Source: an uncultured Caryophanales bacterium (GTDB lineage: Bacteria > Bacillota_I > Bacilli_A > RF39 > UBA660). Taken from it: a DNA stretch of 35,456 bases. Both the position numbers and the translations under genes were made by a program. Below the pieces are notes generated by a model. That model was given only the letters and a program-made list of their open reading frames with translations, did no database searches and was not told where the DNA came from. This document shows, in pieces, positions 90 to 35,456 of this stretch. The stretch covers positions 1 to 35,456 of the forward strand of contig CAMOWA010000014.1 of assembly GCA_946628005.1 (NCBI GenBank), written 5' to 3'. The stretch's first letter is position 1, and each line of letters opens with the position of its first letter.

Positions 90-1562
90 TTATTTATAAG
101 TAATTTCAATTGTTTCTTCTTGTTTATTATATACTATTTTTTCAAATAATTTGTGAGCTAGTGTATCTTTTATATTAGGTGGAACAGAATCATCAGATAG
201 TATTTTATATGCTTCTTCACATATTTTATAAGTTCTTTCTTTTCTCATCTTGACTGATTGATTATAGTTTAGTTTTTCTAGTTCTTTTTTTAAATTAGAT
301 TCTTCTTTATCAAGTTCTGTTTTATTTTCTTTATACTCATTTATTGTATCAATCCCATTAATATATGCATCTTTTATTCTTTTCCTTTTTATTTCCAATC
401 TATCAAGTTGCTTTTTTAATAAACTTATTTCACTTAGTTCAATACTTTCAGTATTTTCTCCAATATTAATGTCTAGTCTTTCGCTATAATCTTTTTTTAG
501 TTGTTCTAAAATGGTAGGAATTATTACAGAGTCACGTATATAATGGCTGCTTAAACATCTTCCTTTATTATATCCACAGCATTGAAAATGGCCACTTCTT
601 CCTTTCATTGCATTTACATGAGATAATGATGCTCCACATTCAGAACATTTTATTATACCTCTTAGCCAATGCTCGTTTTTTGAATATTCTTTTTTATATT
701 TATACCACTTGTCTTTATGTTCTTGCATTTTCTTTTGAGCTAAATTCCATAATTCATCATCAATTATTGGTGGATGTTTTCCTTGACTAATTATCATATC
801 AGGATGATCATAATTTCTTTTCATTCCACCTTCTGTAAATCGCACTTTACCAGTATATGTAATATTTTGTAATATTAATTTCATACTTCTATCACACCAT
901 TTATGTCCTCTAGTAGTTTTAAAGTTTGTATCATTCATAAACTTGCATAGCTTTCTAATTGTGGTATCTGGCTCAATCCACTTTTTAAATATCATTTTTA
1001 CTATTTCGGCTTTTTCTTCATCTATGTATAATTGCTGTGTATTTTTATCATATTTATATCCATATGGTGCTACTCCTTGAAATTCTCCACGTGTAGCTTT
1101 TTCTTTTTTTCCTCTTTTAACATTTTCTGATAAATTTAATGAGTAATATTCATCCATCGCTTCATAAATAGATTCTAGAATTACAGATTCTTTTTTCTTT
1201 TCATCAATAGGTTGAGTTATTGATATGATTTCTATTTCTAATTTTTTTCTTAATAGAGTTTTATATGTTACAGACTCTTCTCTATTTCTCGCAAATCTAG
1301 AAAAATCATAAACGAGAATTGTATTAAATGGTTTTGGCTTTTTCTTGGCATTAGCTATCATTTTTTGAAATTGTGGCCTTTTGTCAACTGTTCTTCCAGA
1401 TATACCATTTTCCCGATATATATGCTCTGGAAGTATATCAATATTATTATCCTTTGCATATGCTATACATAATTTCATTTGTGAATCTGGAGAATACTCA
1501 GTTTGATCATCTGTTGAAACTCTTATATAAACTGCTGCTTTCTTTTCATTTAATTCTGTCAT
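90..1562 (-). CDS. int: Large serine recombinase (phage integrase)
   Basis: This 490-aa protein has the layout of large serine integrases. The N-terminal resolvase domain opens with YIRVSTDDQ, making Ser16 the likely nucleophile with Arg14 beside it, and DFSRFARN (about 86-93) supplies further active-site arginines. A recombinase domain follows, then a zinc ribbon with Cys306/Cys309 and Cys328-329/Cys336, then a charged coiled coil near 375-435 of the kind that controls integration versus excision. It would integrate the phage by attP x attB recombination without host factors. An AGAAAGGAAA ribosome site precedes the ATG. That site lies in the loop of a 9-bp hairpin ending at the start codon (see 1562-1628). 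No separate recombination directionality factor is recognisable, but one of the small early genes could serve. Confidence 0.95.
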   Translation of the reverse strand: MTELNEKKAAVYIRVSTDDQTEYSPDSQMKLCIAYAKDNNIDILPEHIYRENGISGRTVDKRPQFQKMIANAKKKPKPFNTILVYDFSRFARNREESVTYKTLLRKKLEIEIISITQPIDEKKKESVILESIYEAMDEYYSLNLSENVKRGKKEKATRGEFQGVAPYGYKYDKNTQQLYIDEEKAEIVKMIFKKWIEPDTTIRKLCKFMNDTNFKTTRGHKWCDRSMKLILQNITYTGKVRFTEGGMKRNYDHPDMIISQGKHPPIIDDELWNLAQKKMQEHKDKWYKYKKEYSKNEHWLRGIIKCSECGASLSHVNAMKGRSGHFQCCGYNKGRCLSSHYIRDSVIIPTILEQLKKDYSERLDINIGENTESIELSEISLLKKQLDRLEIKRKRIKDAYINGIDTINEYKENKTELDKEESNLKKELEKLNYNQSVKMRKERTYKICEEAYKILSDDSVPPNIKDTLAHKLFEKIVYNKQEETIEITYK

Positions 1563-3028: not shown

Positions 3029-3670
3029 ATGGAAAACAAACCTAATTATTATGCAGTTATCCCAGCAACTGTCAGATACGATACAAGACTTAAAGATAAA
3101 GCTAAACTATTATATGGTGAAATAGCAGCATTAACCAATAAACATGGTGAATGTAGTGCTAGTAATAAATACTTTGCTGAACTCTATGATGTAGATATAT
3201 CTACAATTTCCAGATTGATAAAAAATCTAAGTGATTATGGTTACATAAAAACAACGATTGTTTATAAAGAAAATACAAAAGAAATTGAAAAGAGGTATAT
3301 GCAAATTTGCATAGAGGGTATATGCAAAAAAGTCAAAGATAATAAAGAAGAAGAATATAAAGAAATAAATAAAGAAAGTAATATTTTTGAATTAGTAGAA
3401 AAAAACTTAGGAAGAGTACTTAGTCCTATAGAAATAGAAGTTATTAATAAATGGGATTATGATACTAAAATTATAGAATTAGCTATTAGAGAATCTATTT
3501 TAAATAATGCTAAAACAATTAAATACATAGACAGAGTTCTATTTAACTGGAAGCAAAACAAAGTAGAAACTTTAGAAGATGCTGAAAGATATATAAAAGA
3601 ATTTAGTAATAAAGTTAAACCTAGAAAAAAAGAAAAAGATTTATCTGATAACTATTATAAAGAACTATAA
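3029..3670 (+). CDS. Phage replication initiator, DnaD-like
   Basis: This 213-aa protein has a winged-helix N-terminus (about 15-80; LYDVDISTISRLIKNLSDYG reads as a recognition helix) and a C-terminal DnaD/DnaB_2 domain (about 117-178) with the LSPIEIEVINKW start and the YIDRVLFNWKQN end typical of that fold. The middle (about 88-115) is low-complexity and encoded by repeats that probably form the phage origin. Such proteins bind the origin and load the replicative helicase. The helicase gene begins on the base after this gene's stop codon, matching that role. Ribosome site AGGAGG, 6 nt before the ATG. Confidence 0.88.
   Translation: MENKPNYYAVIPATVRYDTRLKDKAKLLYGEIAALTNKHGECSASNKYFAELYDVDISTISRLIKNLSDYGYIKTTIVYKENTKEIEKRYMQICIEGICKKVKDNKEEEYKEINKESNIFELVEKNLGRVLSPIEIEVINKWDYDTKIIELAIRESILNNAKTIKYIDRVLFNWKQNKVETLEDAERYIKEFSNKVKPRKKEKDLSDNYYKEL
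3291..3395. other. ori: Putative replication origin inside the initiator gene
   Basis: A perfect 16-bp palindrome (TATGCAAATTTGCATA, 3298-3313) is followed by a third TATGCAAA copy at 3321-3328. The longer unit AGAGG(G)TATATGCAAA occurs as a direct repeat at 3291 and 3313. Immediately downstream is an almost pure A/G purine tract with very high A content (about 3335-3395), a good unwinding element. Iterons inside the initiator gene are the known origin arrangement in many Gram-positive temperate phages. Function here is inferred. Confidence 0.55.
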
Positions 3671-11369: not shown

Positions 11370-11987
11370 GTGGCTAAGTATTATCCAATAAAATATGGTA
11401 GATCTACTGTAAGACCATTAAAAAAAGAAGATGCATCTAATTTAATGATAATGCTCCAGAAGAAAAGAGATAATGAGCCTAATGAGACTTTAAAGAAGAT
11501 GTATGATAGAGATTATTTACTAGTTAAATTAGGATTAAACACAGCATTTAGGATTAATGATCTATTAAAGATACAAGTAAATGAAAATCTTATTAAAGGT
11601 ATTATGTATATTAGAGAGAATAAAACAAGGAAAGAACAATATTGGGAATTAAATCCTAAACTACATAAGGATGTAATGGATTATATATCCAGGAATAATC
11701 TATATGATGGTGAATACTTATTTCCATCAAGAGTAGGTACTAATAAACCTATAACTTCAACTAATGCTTGGATGAGGATAAAGAAGTATACAAAAGAATT
11801 AGGAATAAATTATTTAGTAGGATGTCATTCATTGAGAAAATGCTTTGCTAGAACATTCTATGAGAACACAAAAGATTTAATTACATTACAGAAAATGTTA
11901 AATCATTCTAGTCCACAGGTTACATTAATTTATATATGCTGGGATGATGAAGATCAATTAAAATCGAGAAAAGATTTTTATTTTTAA
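11370..11987 (+). CDS. Tyrosine recombinase (XerD-like), catalytic domain only
   Basis: A 205-aa protein with the full catalytic set of tyrosine recombinases: Arg61 (NTAFRINDLL), Lys85, His153 and Arg156 (GCHSLRKC), His179 (MLNHSS) and Tyr188 as nucleophile. The usual N-terminal core-binding/arm domains are mostly missing (about 45 residues precede the catalytic fold, versus 100-170 in integrases). GTG start with AAGGAAG upstream. The phage already has a serine integrase, so this protein more likely resolves multimers, inverts DNA or acts in replication. It is the last early gene before the late regulator. Confidence 0.88.
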   Translation: MAKYYPIKYGRSTVRPLKKEDASNLMIMLQKKRDNEPNETLKKMYDRDYLLVKLGLNTAFRINDLLKIQVNENLIKGIMYIRENKTRKEQYWELNPKLHKDVMDYISRNNLYDGEYLFPSRVGTNKPITSTNAWMRIKKYTKELGINYLVGCHSLRKCFARTFYENTKDLITLQKMLNHSSPQVTLIYICWDDEDQLKSRKDFYF

Positions 11988-14808: not shown

Positions 14809-14986
14809 TGAAAAACCAATAGATGAATTTGAAGTTGTCGCTTTAGCAAAAAGATTAGGAATTACGATAGAAGAGATGAAAGATATGACTTTTGTCTCTT
14901 TATTAAATGTTTTAATTAGCAGTGTCGATAATAATGAATCTGATACTAGGGAAGCAACTCAAGAAGATATTGACAAATATTTCTGA
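14446..14986 (+). CDS. Frameshifted tail assembly chaperone, GT-like
   Basis: The G-like frame can be continued into the frame that ends at 14986, giving about 179 aa. The downstream part (DEFEVVALAKRLGITIEEMK, then VSLLNVLIS, then REATQEDIDKYF) is the typical T portion, including the conserved ATQEDID end. The T frame has no good start of its own. Moving from G to T needs +1 (equivalently -2). The GGGGGA run at 14773-14778 allows a glycine tRNA to slip from GGG to GGG. Phage G/GT pairs normally use -1, with -2 and +1 cases known. The shift itself is inferred. Confidence 0.7.
14773..14779 (+). other. Programmed frameshift site of the G/GT chaperone
   Basis: Five G residues (14773-14777) followed by AAA lie in the zero frame as GGG GGA AAT. 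A P-site tRNA on GGG (14773-14775) can re-pair on GGG one base later (14774-14776) and then read GAA, entering the T frame; a -2 slip after GGA enters the same frame. The zero frame stops 27 bp downstream. Confidence 0.6.
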
Positions 14987-14999
14987 TAGGAGTGTTAGT

Positions 15000-16163
15000 A
15001 TGCAAAACATATTTTATTTTAAAAAAATTAGTAGAATAGGTGGAACAGAACAATTTCTTTATGAAATAGCTAAAAAATATGAAGATTGGGATATTACAGT
15101 TTTCTATGATGAAGCAAACATTGATCAATTAGCAAGATTAAGAAAATATGTAAGATGTAAAAAGCATATTCCAGGAGAAGTGGTGGAATGTGAAAAAGCC
15201 TTTTATAATTTTAATATTGATATGATGGATGATGTTATTTCAAAGAAAAATACATTTGTTTCTCATGCTAATTATGAAGAAATAGGTTATAGGCCACCGA
15301 TTACCGATAGAAGATTAGATGATTTTATTGGAGTATCTAATTTTGCTGCATCTAAATTAGATGAATATGGTAAGAAACTAGGAATGGATATTAAAACAAA
15401 AAAGTGTTATAATCCATTGACAATTGAGCCAAAAGAAAAAGTACTAATATTAGTTAGTGCTGGAAGATTGGATGATGAGGTTAAAGGTGGAAAAAGGACA
15501 CTACAATTAATTGATTCATTAGATAAGTATTGTGAAAAAACAGGTAGACATTATCTGTTTTTAATATTTTCTAATCCAGTTAATTTCGCAATTAAATCAA
15601 AAAATGTTACACTAATGACTCCTAGAGTCGATGTAAGACCATACATATCAATGGCTGATTATGTTATTCAATTATCTAATGATATGGAAACATACTGTTA
15701 TACAATTAATGAAGCATGGTCATATGGAGTACCATGTGTAACTACTCCATTAACCATATGTAAGGAATTACCTATTAATGATAATATGAGATTAGAATGT
15801 GATTGGGATATGAATAACGTAGATGAAATAGTAAAGGAGATGTTTGAGAGGAAAGCATCTCCTTTTAAATACGTTCCACCAGAAGATGATTGGAGCAAGA
15901 TATTAGCTCCAGGGAAAAGCACTTGGAAGGAGGAAAAGAATATGAAAGTTAAAGTTAGATGTATAAGAGATTACTTTGATTTAGAGTTAGATACTATTAT
16001 TAGAGCTAATCCAGAAGATCCTAATTATGAGAGAGTCATAACTAGAGAACGTGCAGATAAGTTATTAGAACTTAACTTAATAGAAGAGCTTGGAGTTGTT
16101 AAAGAAGAGAAGAAAGAACAAGCAACAAAGCCTACAAAAAAAGTAGAAAAAGCAGTTAAATAA
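15000..16163 (+). CDS. GT-B glycosyltransferase with C-terminal extension
   Basis: A 387-aa protein. Residues 1-310 resemble phage-encoded family 4-like glycosyltransferases: IFYFKKISRIGGTEQFLYEI opens the N-terminal Rossmann domain, LVSAGRLDDEVKGGKRTLQLI begins the nucleotide-sugar domain, and TYCYTINEAWSYGVPCVTTP holds the E-x-x-x-x-G-x-P-region that binds the donor. It may modify virion proteins, phage DNA or the host surface. The last 74 codons follow a strong internal ribosome site and may be a separate product (15942-16163). ATG 15000 has TAGGAG upstream; the frame is open further 5' but overlaps the chaperone gene. Confidence 0.82.
   Translation: MQNIFYFKKISRIGGTEQFLYEIAKKYEDWDITVFYDEANIDQLARLRKYVRCKKHIPGEVVECEKAFYNFNIDMMDDVISKKNTFVSHANYEEIGYRPPITDRRLDDFIGVSNFAASKLDEYGKKLGMDIKTKKCYNPLTIEPKEKVLILVSAGRLDDEVKGGKRTLQLIDSLDKYCEKTGRHYLFLIFSNPVNFAIKSKNVTLMTPRVDVRPYISMADYVIQLSNDMETYCYTINEAWSYGVPCVTTPLTICKELPINDNMRLECDWDMNNVDEIVKEMFERKASPFKYVPPEDDWSKILAPGKSTWKEEKNMKVKVRCIRDYFDLELDTIIRANPEDPNYERVITRERADKLLELNLIEELGVVKEEKKEQATKPTKKVEKAVK
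15942..16163 (+). CDS. Possible in-frame internal product of the glycosyltransferase gene
   Basis: An AAGGAGG at 15927-15933, 8 nt before an in-frame ATG (15942), could start a 73-aa protein. Its sequence (VKVRCIRDYFDLELDTIIRA, then ITRERADKLLELNLIEEL, then a Lys/Glu tail) resembles the small stand-alone phage head-module proteins with a 'K.R..D......G.......RA..L...G.VE' plan followed by a charged tail. Either two genes have fused in frame with the old start kept, or both long and short forms are made. Confidence 0.5.
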   Translation: MKVKVRCIRDYFDLELDTIIRANPEDPNYERVITRERADKLLELNLIEELGVVKEEKKEQATKPTKKVEKAVK

Positions 16164-27199: not shown

Positions 27200-29233
27200 A
27201 TGGCAGGGAATTTTAAAGTAAGAATGTATGATCTTCAAAACAGATACAAATTCAAAGTGTTTTGTTCTGGGACTCCATATGATGATTCAGGAGTTAAACA
27301 GGATATTAGTGATTTAAAAAATAGTAAAGCAAATAAAAGTGAAACATATTCTAAATCAGAAGCTAATACTTTATTAAATGCAAAAGCAAATACATCGGAT
27401 GTATATACAAAAAGTGAAATTGATGCCAAAGTATCGTCAGTGTATAAATACAAAGGATCTGTACAAAATTATAGCAATTTACCAACAACAGGATTAACAG
27501 TAGGAGATGTTTATGATATTAAAAATGCTGATAGTACACATGGCATAAAAGCAGGAGATAATGTTGCTTGGAATGGAACGACATGGGATGTGTTAAGTGG
27601 AATAGTTGATTTATCAGAAATAAATAATAACATTGCCAACATAAATGGATTTTTGTTTGACGGAACAAATCCAACTAAAATAAAAGATTTTCTAACAATG
27701 ATGAGAGCTATGTTAGTTACAGAAGGCGAATATGGTGTTGAATGGGATTTATTCGCAACTAACAATAGTTCTAGTTGTACTAAATTATATGATAATGTAG
27801 GATTAAGTATCACTCCTGGAACTGATTCAGTTGCAGAAGTAAATAATTATCCTAAAATATTTGACTCAATTGATTGTAATTACATTAATATTAATGGGGA
27901 AGATATCATTACAGCATTAAAAGGAATGTCTAATTATGGTGAGACTCCTTCAGAAATACAAGATGTTACAATTGATGGAGTAACTTATACTCCTGATGTT
28001 GGAACTGTACATTTTTCAAGATATGAAAAATATGGAATAAATAGTTCAGGGAAAATGGAATACTCTATGTCATGGATTCCAAGAGATGGATATACTCTTA
28101 TTGATTTAGGAAAAGATAAAAATGGAAACTTTAAACCATATTTCATTATTGCAAAATATGTTGCAGGATATGATGGAAATAATAAAGTAAGAAGTGCTGC
28201 AGGGTTAGATCCAGCGTGTCATTTAACTGGTAGTTCTGCAGGAGATGAGAATGCAGATCACAATATGAATTATACTAATTGTATTAATATATTCCATACT
28301 AGAGGAAATTATTATTCAGCAGCTTTAATGTCTGAATACGGTTTCATTATGAGAGATTTTTGGTTAAAGTTTGGAACAAGAAACACTCAATCAATTATGG
28401 CTGGAAATACATCAAACAGTTATCAATATGCTGTAGCGACTGCTGAAACTGATGTACATAGAGTTGTATTAACTAATGCACAAGCAGCTAATATTGATTT
28501 ATTAAGTTGTGTTTCTGTTGGTGATAGAGGTACTGCTACTAATAACGATCGTATTAATAAATATATGCACAATATTTGTAAATGTGCTAGAGTAATAGCT
28601 AAAGAAACTGTAGATACAGATCATACAGCTTTAATTCTTGATCATGCTAACTTTAACACTACTTCAACTACATATGTTTCTACAATGCACGAAAGAAGTG
28701 GTTATAGTAAGTATGTAAGAGGTAGATATGGTTCACCAGTAAATAATACTAACGGAAAGCATGGTATGGTATTTAATGGTATAGAAATAGCTGTAGGAGG
28801 TTATGAAGTTGCTGGTAATGCAATATTAGATATTGTAGATGATACAGGAAAGAGAGAGGTTTATGTTATGAATAATGCAACAAAACTAAGTGGAACTGTT
28901 GCAACTATTAAAGATACATATACAAAGTCCTCTTTATCAATTCAACCAACTACATTAAACACATGGAATTACATAACTAGATACGATTATGATATTACTA
29001 ATGGTTTAATGGTACCTACAGAAGCAGGTCAAAGTGGATCAGGAACTTCTACAGGATTTGCAGATGGATTATATGTGGATAATGCAGCAAGTGGTCAAAG
29101 GGAATGCTTGTGGCTCGGCTTTCTGAATAATCTTGGTAATGCTGGCTTGTCCTGTCTCAATGCGTATATTGGAATGTCAAGTGGTGATTGGTTTATCCTC
29201 GCTCGTCTCTCAACAAATGGTGTAAGGGGGTGA
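27200..29233 (+). CDS. DGR target: tail fibre/receptor-binding protein with variable C-terminus
   Basis: A 677-aa tail protein. Residues about 30-75 hold fibre-stalk repeats (ETYSKSEANTLLNAKANTSD, VYTKSEIDAK) typical of trimeric phage fibres; a YKYKGSVQNYSNLP...WNGTTWDVLSG domain follows. The C-terminal part ends in CLWLGFLNN...GLSCLNAY...GDWFILARLS (636-670), which fits the C-type-lectin ligand-binding fold of DGR-diversified proteins. This last part is the variable repeat. Residues 641, 645, 655, 656, 657, 659, 661, 663 and 665 differ from the template-encoded residues, mostly Asn in the template. It likely binds the host receptor. The gene starts with GAGGGGGAG before ATG. Confidence 0.9.
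   Translation: MAGNFKVRMYDLQNRYKFKVFCSGTPYDDSGVKQDISDLKNSKANKSETYSKSEANTLLNAKANTSDVYTKSEIDAKVSSVYKYKGSVQNYSNLPTTGLTVGDVYDIKNADSTHGIKAGDNVAWNGTTWDVLSGIVDLSEINNNIANINGFLFDGTNPTKIKDFLTMMRAMLVTEGEYGVEWDLFATNNSSSCTKLYDNVGLSITPGTDSVAEVNNYPKIFDSIDCNYININGEDIITALKGMSNYGETPSEIQDVTIDGVTYTPDVGTVHFSRYEKYGINSSGKMEYSMSWIPRDGYTLIDLGKDKNGNFKPYFIIAKYVAGYDGNNKVRSAAGLDPACHLTGSSAGDENADHNMNYTNCINIFHTRGNYYSAALMSEYGFIMRDFWLKFGTRNTQSIMAGNTSNSYQYAVATAETDVHRVVLTNAQAANIDLLSCVSVGDRGTATNNDRINKYMHNICKCARVIAKETVDTDHTALILDHANFNTTSTTYVSTMHERSGYSKYVRGRYGSPVNNTNGKHGMVFNGIEIAVGGYEVAGNAILDIVDDTGKREVYVMNNATKLSGTVATIKDTYTKSSLSIQPTTLNTWNYITRYDYDITNGLMVPTEAGQSGSGTSTGFADGLYVDNAASGQRECLWLGFLNNLGNAGLSCLNAYIGMSSGDWFILARLSTNGVRG
29105..29206 (+). 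repeat. DGR variable repeat (VR)
   Basis: These 102 bp align without gaps to the template repeat 213 bp downstream. Twelve positions differ and each is an A in the template (7 A to T, 4 A to G, 1 A to C); none of the 74 non-A positions differs. The identical GC-rich 3' end TATCCTCGCTCGT is the likely initiation-of-mutagenic-homing segment. Weaker similarity (CTCAA) continues to 29213 with one further A-to-C and a C-to-T change. Confidence 0.95.
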
Positions 29234-29263
29234 ATTGGCCTTGCCAAGAGGGGATTCCCCCCT
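29225..29263 (+). other. Hairpin/cruciform just after the variable repeat
   Basis: AGGGGG (29225-29230) can pair with CCCCCT (29258-29263), enclosing TTGGC-CTT-GCCAA (29235-29247); an alternative is GGGG-ATT-CCCC (29250-29260). The GC-rich fold begins 18 bp after the VR and overlaps the stop codon of the target gene. In the Bordetella phage DGR a hairpin/cruciform placed just downstream of VR increases retrohoming; this looks like the counterpart. Confidence 0.65.
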
Positions 29264-29278
29264 AATTAATTAAAAGTA

Positions 29279-29287
29279 TGCTATAAT
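29279..29287 (+). promoter_or_regulatory. Extended -10 promoter of the template RNA
   Basis: TGCTATAAT is a perfect TGnTATAAT extended -10 element, which can work without a -35 box (none is seen). Transcription would start near 29294, about 24 nt before the template repeat, giving an RNA that contains the template and the spacer up to the RT gene. Confidence 0.6.
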
Positions 29288-29293
29288 ATTAAA

Positions 29294-29644
29294 TGAGGAC
29301 CCGAAAAAGAGGTTTTTTGCTTGTGGCTCGGCAATCTGAATAATAATGGTAATGCTGGCTTGTCCTGTCTCAATACGAATAATGGAATATCAAATGGTAA
29401 TTGGAATATCCTCGCTCGTACCTCAAGATATAATTAATATGAGTTAAATTTTCAGGGCCGTACCTAAGAAGGACATAGATGTAAATCTATCTCATTTAGC
29501 ATAGCTAAAATTTAAGATTGAAACACCAACTTGAAAGTTCTACAAAGCACATCAAGAGAACGATTAGAGACGTTATATGTTAATGGATATAATGTGGGGT
29601 TAGTAGTAAAGTCCGAAAGCCCCTGATATCTTGAGAGGTGTCAT
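29294..29644 (+). ncRNA. DGR template RNA: template repeat plus structured spacer
   Basis: The template repeat is 29318-29419; if translated in the VR frame it would give many AAT (Asn) codons, the usual DGR design. The spacer (29420-29644) has no ORF but visible stems: ATAGAT-GTAA-ATCTAT (29475-29490, a GNRA-type tetraloop), TTTAGC-ATA-GCTAAA (29495-29509), and GGGG (29596-29599) with CCCC near 29620. Such TR-spacer RNAs prime cDNA synthesis by the RT. The RNA ends are inferred; transcription may continue into the RT gene, whose GAGAGGTG site closes the region. Confidence 0.75.
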
Positions 29645-30889
29645 ATGAAAAGATATTTAAGTAATTTTGAACTAACAGAAGAGTTTGTAAGAAAATCTGT
29701 TTTTGATTGTTTAGGTGGATCACCTACAAGAAAATCAAGATGGAAAGAAAAGAAAACCATCTTTTTTCTTGCAGAATATTTAATGAAGTGGGAATATCAG
29801 CATAATTTTAGAGAAGTATCTAATATTAAGACAATTGGATATCGGTTATATAATTATGCAATTAACAATAAAGAAAGGCTTTATCCATTAGTTAATTATA
29901 TTGCTCATGAAATGTATTTAGAAATCAAAAATAGATCTATTAGATTAAGAAAAATTAATTATAATACTATAATTGATAAAGGATCTAAAAAGACTCGTGT
30001 AATAGGCTCTGCTAGCATGAAACAACAATGTTATGATTATGTAGTAGTAAATGCATTAAAAGAGATGTTTGATGCTAAAATAGGCCATTATCAATGTGCT
30101 AGTCTTCCAAACAAAGGTCAGTTATTTGGAAAGCAAGCTATTGAGTCCTGGATTCGGACTAATCCTAAAAAGTGTACATGGTTTTTCAAAGGCGATGTTA
30201 AACAGTTTTATCCTAGTGTTAATCACAGGATTGCAAAAAGATTATTAAATAGAGATATCAAAAATAAAGATATACTTTATTTAGCATATACATTAATTGA
30301 TACATATGGAGACGTAGGATTATGTATTGGATCATATTTTTGCCAGTATATGGCTAATTATATAATGTCATATCCTTATCATTATGTTACTGAAATGTTA
30401 TATGTAAATAGACGTGGAAAACGATATAATTTAGTTCACCATGCTTTGTTTTATATGGATGACGTAATTCTTATCGGAAGTAATAAAAAACACGTCAAAA
30501 AGGCTGCTATTGAGCTTGAAAAGTATCTTAATAAATTCTTTGATTTAAAATTAAAACTAGATTATCAATTATTTCCCATTGATAGTAGGCCGATTGATAT
30601 GATGGGATATAAAATATATTCTGATTATACAACTGTTAGAAAAAGAATATTTAAGCCAGCTAATAGGGTTTTCAATCAAGTTAAAGGAAAAGATACAATG
30701 ACATTAGAAGAAGCTCATAAAGTGGTTTCTTATTATGGATATTTTAAATATACCGATAGTTATAAATATAGAAAAAAAGTAAAAATGAGTCGCTCATTAA
30801 GAGTGGCAAAGGAGGTAATATCAAATGAAGCAAAGAATAGCAGAGTTCCCAACAGCACAGGGACCATATCTGTATCAACTGCAATCTGA
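29645..30889 (+). CDS. DGR reverse transcriptase
   Basis: A 414-aa group II/DGR-type reverse transcriptase. Seen motifs: KKTRVIGSASMKQQCYDYVV (116-134, RT1-2 region), KGDVKQFYPSV (182-192, catalytic Asp184), GLCIGSYFCQYMANY (225-239, motif 4), FYMDDVILIG (269-278, Asp272/Asp273), then a lysine-rich thumb. DGR enzymes usually have IG...SQ in motif 4; here Ser is Cys (IGSYFCQ). It copies the template RNA with errors at adenines, and the cDNA replaces the VR. No maturase or endonuclease domain, and no Avd partner gene nearby. The 3' end overlaps the next gene by 65 bp. Longer than the Bordetella enzyme (about 330 aa). Confidence 0.93.
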   Translation: MKRYLSNFELTEEFVRKSVFDCLGGSPTRKSRWKEKKTIFFLAEYLMKWEYQHNFREVSNIKTIGYRLYNYAINNKERLYPLVNYIAHEMYLEIKNRSIRLRKINYNTIIDKGSKKTRVIGSASMKQQCYDYVVVNALKEMFDAKIGHYQCASLPNKGQLFGKQAIESWIRTNPKKCTWFFKGDVKQFYPSVNHRIAKRLLNRDIKNKDILYLAYTLIDTYGDVGLCIGSYFCQYMANYIMSYPYHYVTEMLYVNRRGKRYNLVHHALFYMDDVILIGSNKKHVKKAAIELEKYLNKFFDLKLKLDYQLFPIDSRPIDMMGYKIYSDYTTVRKRIFKPANRVFNQVKGKDTMTLEEAHKVVSYYGYFKYTDSYKYRKKVKMSRSLRVAKEVISNEAKNSRVPNSTGTISVSTAI

Positions 30890-31151
30890 TGGAAGTGCAG
30901 TTGTTTTTATTAGAGAATTTATTCGAGAAGAACATAGAGAAACAGAAGAAGGATCCGAAGAGGTCCTTTTTGTTTACAATGAAAATGAGTTCAGAGTAGA
31001 TTCTAAAGAAATAACAGAAGAGATGATTGCAGCAGATCCATTAAGTTGGCTTACTTATGATGATACAATCCCATCATTTGAAACACAGGTAATAACTGCT
31101 TTAAATGATTTAGGAGAAGTAGTAGGAGAACTATTAGGAGGGATGGTTTAA
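30825..31151 (+). CDS. Hypothetical protein after the RT
   Basis: A 108-aa protein that starts inside the RT gene with a strong AAAGGAGG site. The first half is beta-like (YLYQLQSDGSAVVFIREFIREEHR); the end is helical (FETQVITALNDLGEVVGELLGGMV). It is too acidic and of the wrong composition for Avd, a basic helical-bundle protein of about 125 aa. Genes of this shape are found before CD1375-type genes in tail modules, so it is probably a tail-region protein rather than a DGR part. Confidence 0.65.
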   Translation: MKQRIAEFPTAQGPYLYQLQSDGSAVVFIREFIREEHRETEEGSEEVLFVYNENEFRVDSKEITEEMIAADPLSWLTYDDTIPSFETQVITALNDLGEVVGELLGGMV

Positions 31152-31255
31152 TGGTACAGATATACGTTAAATTAATTAAAGAAGGAAAAAGAACTATTGA
31201 GCAAGTTCCACCAATTTGGAGAGCTGCTGTAGAGGAAGCATTAAAAGAAAGGTAG
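31151..31255 (+). CDS. CD1375-family small protein
   Basis: A 34-aa peptide: QIYVKLIKEGKRTIEQVP, then IWRAAVEEALKER. This matches the short CD1375-type family (xxYxxLIxxGxxTIExVPxxxRxxVxxxL) found next to tail genes in Clostridia phages; its role is unknown. The ATG overlaps the preceding stop codon. Confidence 0.75.
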   Translation: MVQIYVKLIKEGKRTIEQVPPIWRAAVEEALKER

Positions 31256-35233: not shown

Positions 35234-35407
35234 ATGTACCAAACAAGAATACTAAATGAACAAGAAATAGAAGATTTTAATAAAAAGTTCAATACTGATT
35301 ATAAGGTTATACACATAAGGCAAAGAGGTAAAAAATATTTTGCATATCTTGATTGCAGTATAGAAATTTTATTAAGGCAAAAAGAAGCACTAAATTATTT
35401 TATTTAG
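35234..35407 (+). CDS. Stand-alone small gene with own promoter (moron-like)
   Basis: A 57-aa protein (YQTRILNEQEIEDFNKKFNT, YKVIHIRQRGKKYFAYLDCS). The ATG at 35234 follows AAGGAGGGA. It lies between the late terminator and the attP-like site, has its own promoter, and faces the integrase gene end-to-end in the circle. Such isolated genes in prophages are often expressed in the lysogen; excisionase/RDF is another option, since that gene can lie near attP. Its stop codon lies within the terminal repeat. Confidence 0.65.
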   Translation: MYQTRILNEQEIEDFNKKFNTDYKVIHIRQRGKKYFAYLDCSIEILLRQKEALNYFI

Positions 35408-35456
35408 TGTTTTTTCTTTCTATATTATATATGTATACCAAATGACATTGATTGGA
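35402..35456. repeat. Terminal direct repeat, right copy
   Basis: Identical to bases 1-55. Joining 35401 to base 1 gives a continuous sequence in which the 57-aa gene, the attP-like dyad and the convergent integrase gene follow one another without interruption. Confidence 0.9.

Follow-up and report, generated by a model that had tools for sequence, protein, structure and literature searches.

The window analysed here is a 35,456-nucleotide stretch of DNA assigned to an uncultured Caryophanales bacterium (GenBank assembly GCA_946628005.1, contig CAMOWA010000014.1), and corresponds to contig 14 of the metagenome-assembled genome (MAG) G000. Within a phage tail module it carries a diversity-generating retroelement (DGR), made up of a target gene whose 3' end holds a variable repeat (VR), a non-coding template repeat (TR), a spacer, and a gene for a reverse transcriptase (RT). 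The locus is a complete DGR of a known class, with an arrangement and a target family that are common to many Bacillota phage DGRs. Its features are as follows:

27200–29233 (+): DGR target, a 677-aa tail/receptor-binding protein bearing the VR (phrog_17147, unknown function)
29105–29206 (+): VR, codons 636–669 of the target
29207–29208 (+): fixed CT (VR) versus AC (TR) difference, identical in the window and in contigs L004, L005, and L024
29235–29247 (+): inverted repeat TTGGC-CTT-GCCAA, a candidate homing hairpin 28 bp after the VR
29318–29419 (+): TR, non-coding, with 28 A in 102 positions, between the target stop and the RT start
29420–29644 (+): TR–RT spacer, predicted 3' part of the DGR RNA
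29580–29641 (+): RT-18-like hairpin element, just ahead of the RT start
29596–29623 (+): core of this hairpin, GGGGU-U-AGUA-G-loop-C-GAA-A-GCCCC
29645–30889 (+): DGR RT, 414 aa, with an FYMDD active site and an IGSYFCQ motif

Repeats, reverse transcriptase, and variation of the target

VR and TR align over 102 positions at an offset of 213 bp, and their 12 mismatches all lie at template adenines (12/28 at A, 0/74 at non-A). The chance that 12 mismatches placed at random over 102 positions would all hit A is 2.3e-8. At these positions the VR has received T seven times, G four times, and C once. Homology between the repeats extends to about 29213/29426, and the CT/AC difference immediately past the VR fits the expected distinction between the initiation of mutagenic homing (IMH) and IMH* sequences rather than mutagenesis. 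The template is rich in AAT (11 of 34 codons); none of its 14 variable codons can be converted to a stop, and together they allow ~10^14.8 possible VR protein sequences. The same A-mismatch pattern, in other sequences, recurs in the TR/VR pairs of more than 15 related contigs. Past the VR, the inverted repeat changes its stem sequence in relatives yet keeps its pairing, with stems of 6–9 bp; the published DGR hairpin or cruciform at this location, which aids homing, has a 7–10-bp GC-rich stem and a GRNA loop (PMC3240598). In one related contig (L015, contig 3300029822_000353), the TR at 3282–3384 is A-poor and differs from sister TRs at 15/24 A columns and 3/62 others, as if the template had itself been adenine-mutagenised; a second TR was not found in this 5.8-kb contig.

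The RT gene starts 225 nt past the 102-bp TR. In profile searches its product matches RVT_1 and a PHROG RT family, and among solved structures the Bordetella phage DGR RT 8ub7 comes nearest to it by sequence (phmmer 2e-15). The AlphaFold model (pLDDT 83) has as its top Foldseek matches four RT chains of DGR ribonucleoproteins (Bordetella DGR RT, 1.3e-14). About 95 residues of helices precede the polymerase domain; the model resolves this N-terminus into four helices, which alone give no evidence of a fused Avd. A 48-row tree places the RT within the DGR clade (94/92), in a 100/100 subgroup with the RTs of phages LBR48, Arawn, and Epona, and a 145-row RT tree agrees on the DGR placement.

It is hardly conceivable, in our judgment, that a retron, group II intron, or abortive-infection RT came to lie beside the repeat by chance. 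Weak, sub-threshold matches to TIGR04416 and DRT models could be taken in that sense, as could the interpretation of a homologous RT, in the Butyrivibrio phages Arawn and Idris (L043), as a phage immunity factor (PMC7372960). However, genuine retron, AbiP2, and group II intron RTs fall outside the DGR clade that holds the window's RT, the nearest solved structure is a DGR RT, and the TR/VR differences are confined to A. We therefore rejected the group II intron, retron, and Abi readings on the tree and the profiles, TIGR04416 scoring 45.9 bits against a cut-off of 300. Because Arawn has a clear TR/VR pair, with 9/9 mismatches at A, we take its element to be a DGR as well.

Activity was assessed at the level of assembled contigs, by comparing the window with the target genes of close relatives from other metagenomes. 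Between the window and L081 the target body shows 0/905 nt differences, while the VR is changed at 18/25 template-A and 0/61 other positions. L084 gives the same picture, with 2/905 differences in the body and VR changes at 19/28 template-A and 0/74 other positions. L082, L004, and L024 behave likewise, with at most three non-A VR changes at 4–9% body divergence, and a pattern scan for VR alleles yielded L036–L041. The TR is identical in the window, L004, L005, and L024, and the RT genes of L004 and L024 are about 87–88% identical to the window's. Several contigs terminate within the VR or TR, as expected because alleles and repeats break assembly. These comparisons indicate that the DGR is active in nature and apparently rewrites the tip of the tail protein, such that the same gene body comes with a different lectin face. 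The view that the element is degenerate or inactive, with TR and VR as relics and the VR differences old, is very improbable: although the population could be fixed within each sample, VR alleles differ at ~70% of template A where the target is otherwise identical over 905 nt, the TR is unchanged among relatives, and the RT frame and active site are intact.

The varied protein is encoded between the Dit and tail endopeptidase genes. An AlphaFold model of its last 538 residues (pLDDT 91.8, pTM 0.91) resembles TaqVP (PDB 5VF4; Z 20.9 over 289 residues, root-mean-square deviation 4.3, 16% identity), the variable protein of a Thermus aquaticus DGR, which has a C-type-lectin fold (PMC6328139); against BPP-1 Mtd the model gives Z 9.8. 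Its C-terminal ~530 aa are thus modelled as a C-type-lectin-type DGR variable protein with the VR at the C-terminus. Homologous domains occur in dozens of the DGR loci we fetched, attached to differing N-terminal parts. Fold and location suggest that the target binds a host receptor and that VR change probably alters host recognition.

Much of this had been anticipated in a preliminary description made from the window's sequence. Its coordinates for the TR and VR, the 213-bp spacing, and its counts (12/12 mismatches at A, 0/74 at non-A) are exact, and its remark that the AAT-rich template codons yield no stop holds. The adenine-directed change that it deduced is borne out by VR alleles from other metagenomes, which in L081 and L084 vary at template A alone beside a near-identical gene body; the confinement of variation to template adenines, which it proposed to look for in reads, is thereby found in surrogate form. 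It had also made the place of the RT in a tree a test of its reading, and in both of our trees the RT falls inside the DGR clade, apart from group II introns, retrons, and AbiP2.

A hairpin between the template repeat and the reverse transcriptase

The preliminary description did not mention the hairpin that lies in the spacer. TR and spacer together (29318–29644) are 97.7–100% conserved against L004 and L024, with the spacer alone at 97.7%, compared with 91–93% for the target body and 87% for the RT, so the DGR RNA appears to be constrained as a whole. Of the 220 RT loci that we fetched, a redundant set, 103 have an AGUAG...CGAA motif with a stem upstream of the RT, versus 0.6% of shuffled upstream regions. 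Since selection by motif and stem rule inflates pairing, we repeated the analysis with the motif alone and with a cross-branch model. Core positions are paired in 85–92% of 74 distinct copies picked by motif alone, and in fewer when the positions are slid; across 58 distinct sequences, each of the four core pairs shows 4 to 6 pair types. The covariation score of the whole hairpin is 0.537, versus 0.213 for shuffled (0/500) and at most 0.217 for slid alignments, and inside the window-type clade it is 0.549 versus 0.289.

R1, a covariance model of the hairpin with the window sequence in its training set, finds a single site in the window and gives matches at E<1e-3 in 29/84 loci that lack the exact motif or stem, all of them just upstream of the RT. 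By inspection, AGUA and GAA are retained in 25/28 model-found sequences that were not chosen for the motif, with a closing pair of G-C in 8, A-U in 13, C-G in 1, and G-U in 3. The sarcin-ricin (bulged-G) motif is marked by AGUA facing GAA, and the hairpin appears to carry this signature at the level of the consensus only. Among 295 genomes of the phylum, three hairpin matches, counting the window's own, reach at least 30 bits, and each of them lies directly upstream of a DGR RT; another, at 23 bits, is not so placed.

No Rfam match was obtained in the window: RT-18 is absent at E<=5 in 501 nt, and the window lies below the gathering score of RF03021. Nor was there an Rfam match in 16 further loci of the window's branch or in Arawn. 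For LBR48, Levilactobacillus, and similar relatives, Rfam does place an RT-18 RNA (RF03021) at the corresponding site (58–70 bits in LBR48-type loci), and the idea that the hairpin is a new RNA was dropped on that account. A second model, R2, was built from 29 window-type sequences alone, with RT-18-type loci left out; it matches the RT-18-type site in 29/32 loci, 18 of them at E<1e-3, and has no significant match in 31 hairpin-less loci. Because this model of window-type sequences recognises RT-18-type sites, the window hairpin is a diverged branch of RT-18, homologous to it and at the same site. None of the papers searched, a set that did not extend to the 2017 survey from which RT-18 reportedly comes, names both RT-18 and DGRs.

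A single clade of 123 rows (SH-aLRT 99) takes in all 95 hairpin-positive rows of the 145-row RT tree. The same clade has 19 hairpin-negative and 9 doubtful rows, and 11 of the 19 negatives form part of one subclade that includes Actinomycetota. Outside it stand 19 DGR rows, among them BPP-1, Vibrio VP58.5, crAss LMMB, and Bacteroidota elements; 18 are hairpin-negative and one is doubtful (E 0.25). bAvd (PF22296) was not found in G000 or in the near relatives searched, with a BPP-1 control at 2e-37, and bAvd matches in 32 further hairpin-positive records showed no overlap with the hairpin loci compared. The hairpin, in turn, is present in none of 15 bAvd loci (11 with an RT beside Avd) nor in BPP-1 (best E 0.25). 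This contrast between hairpin and Avd is strong, but it amounts to essentially one phylogenetic split and therefore indicates association, not replacement. In the F. prausnitzii phages of PMC5883640, Avd homologues occur in only two. Genome G355 combines the two DGR types: of its contigs C8 (L251) and C13 (L272), one has an RT of the hairpin type and the other an RT of the Avd type. Two hairpin-type DGR contigs, L091 and L139, were binned with Methanosphaera and Akkermansia MAGs and are probably misbinned Bacillota phage contigs.

Proposed mechanism and role of the hairpin

The explanation we favour, with a probability of about 0.93, is a complete, naturally active DGR in which the hairpin docks the RT instead of Avd and the VR is rewritten. 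TR and downstream spacer would be transcribed as one RNA, with the spacer folded. The RT-18-type hairpin ahead of the RT gene would dock the RT and help to start cDNA at the 3' end of the TR, replacing Avd, and the RT would misread template adenines. Guided by the IMH/IMH* difference and the post-VR hairpin, the resulting cDNA would take the place of the C-terminal VR of the tail protein and would so redraw the ligand-binding face of the C-type-lectin tip, and with it probably the set of receptors recognised. The BPP-1 spacer is known to fold, to bring in the RT–Avd complex, and to provide the adenine from which cDNA synthesis is primed (PMC12875486). By analogy with this recruitment, the window's spacer hairpin is most likely the RT docking site, and in Avd-less DGRs such hairpins may serve both docking and priming.

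Several observations weigh against this explanation. The whole spacer, folded as a single sequence, is no more stable than shuffled sequences (z 0.21), and the support for its putative structure is entirely comparative. The window's post-VR repeat, a 5-bp stem with a CTT loop, is shorter than the form described in PMC3240598. In the SQ motif, the S kept by most relatives is replaced by C in the window's RT (IGSYFCQ), as it is in L008, L009, and L013. Finally, a diverged Avd could have escaped PF22296.

The hairpin might instead control translation of the RT gene, either bound by the RT or folded over the ribosome-binding site, with no part in cDNA synthesis. Its position lends this idea some weight, as in the window-type clade only 23–34 nt separate the end of the hairpin from the RT start codon, and the ribosome-binding site lies right beside it. 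In LBR48, however, the element is farther from the RT start (locus 719–779, RT at 822), conservation covers the entire TR–spacer and so reaches beyond a leader, and the same interval in BPP-1 is the RT-docking and priming RNA (PMC12875486). We consider translational control unlikely, and a docking site the better account of the hairpin.

More tentatively, and as something we would sooner doubt than assert, DGR machinery may come in two types: one dependent on Avd, as in BPP-1, and one lacking it, in which an RT-18-like bulged-G hairpin and the helical N-terminus of the RT do the job of Avd. The latter would be widespread in Bacillota phages, with the window in a branch of this RNA family that escapes Rfam.

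The DGR itself adds another member to a well-known class, and the evidence that it is active in nature is unusually clean. The hairpin is a small, covarying, concrete element that bears on how the RT is recruited to its template in Avd-less DGRs, and it links RT-18, an Rfam family with no assigned role, to DGRs. For directed protein diversification, compact DGRs free of Avd could be useful.

Phage context and comparison with known elements

The ends of the window overlap by 55 bp and an identical contig, L006, spans the end-to-end junction, so the window is a closed ~35.4-kb phage contig rather than a stretch of chromosome. Besides a large serine recombinase, a repressor, and a DnaB helicase, it encodes terminase, portal, and capsid proteins, a tape measure, Dit, and a tail endopeptidase. 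This gene content suggests a temperate siphovirus, whose hosts would be rumen Bacillota. Features outside the DGR are these:

1–55 and 35402–35456: 55-bp terminal repeat, the overlap of the window ends
90–1562 (-): large serine recombinase
11370–11987 (+): short tyrosine-integrase-like protein
30825–31151 (+): small tail-module open reading frame (ORF), 108 aa, overlapping the 3' end of the RT gene, in the XkdW position
31151–31255 (+): XkdX-like ORF, 34 aa, in the same position as XkdX in Epona

The putative host assignment rests on binning in MAG G000 and on a relative in the same-genus genome G026, where a 90-kb contig encodes an RT with 88% identity; this contig matches the record of a rumen MAG labelled Erysipelotrichaceae, RUG12568, of which L024 is a prophage. 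The 108-aa ORF, whose counterpart occupies the same position in Epona and LBR48, has no family match in profile searches; it was rejected as a substitute for Avd and is likely a tail gene in the XkdW position. The tyrosine-integrase-like protein beside the serine recombinase may be an inversion or regulatory recombinase, and a weak glycosyltransferase match (Pfam Glyco_trans_1_4, 27.4 bits) lies at 14922–16163, just upstream of the terminase region. MAG G000 encodes two further RTs, an Ec107-like retron RT and an AbiP2 RT (contigs C44 = L058 and C48 = L067), and the chromosome of the same-class genome G082 has 29 RVT_1 matches, many of them equal-scoring copies of a group II intron RT.

The window's element resembles that of BPP-1 (mtd-avd-TR-brt) in the kind of RT, the A-specific change from TR to VR, the lectin-fold tail target, the spacer between TR and RT, and the inverted repeat after the VR. 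It differs in having no detectable Avd, in a TR that follows the VR by 111 bp with no intervening gene, in the longer helical N-terminus of its RT, and in the RT-18-like hairpin of its spacer, which BPP-1 lacks. With TaqVP the target shares the predicted C-type-lectin fold over the modelled 538 residues and a C-terminal VR, but it is longer and carries tail-attachment sequence at its N-terminus. RT-18 RNA (RF03021) has the same site and the same AGUA/GAA hairpin; its Rfam model, however, recognises LBR48-type loci and not the window's branch or Arawn.

The nearest named RT relatives are those of Faecalibacterium phage FP_Epona, Butyrivibrio phage Arawn, and Lactobacillus phage LBR48. These phages share the order of target, TR, RT, and small ORF and the position of XkdX, and no bAvd was found in them. 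Arawn and LBR48 carry the hairpin, whereas Epona has no detectable one. Their RTs are only 27–32% identical to the window's and have a shorter N-terminus, and the Epona target is annotated as BPP-1 Mtd-like. The preliminary description had suggested that the arrangement and the target might be undescribed. Neither suggestion is supported by this comparison: the order target(VR)-TR-RT-small overlapping ORF-XkdX is that of Epona, matched by Arawn and LBR48, and the target is one of a large family that DGRs diversify. The rumen/gut phage contigs L004 and L024 have an identical TR, an RT ~87–88% identical, and the same architecture; they differ in their VR alleles and in DNA that is ~10% diverged.

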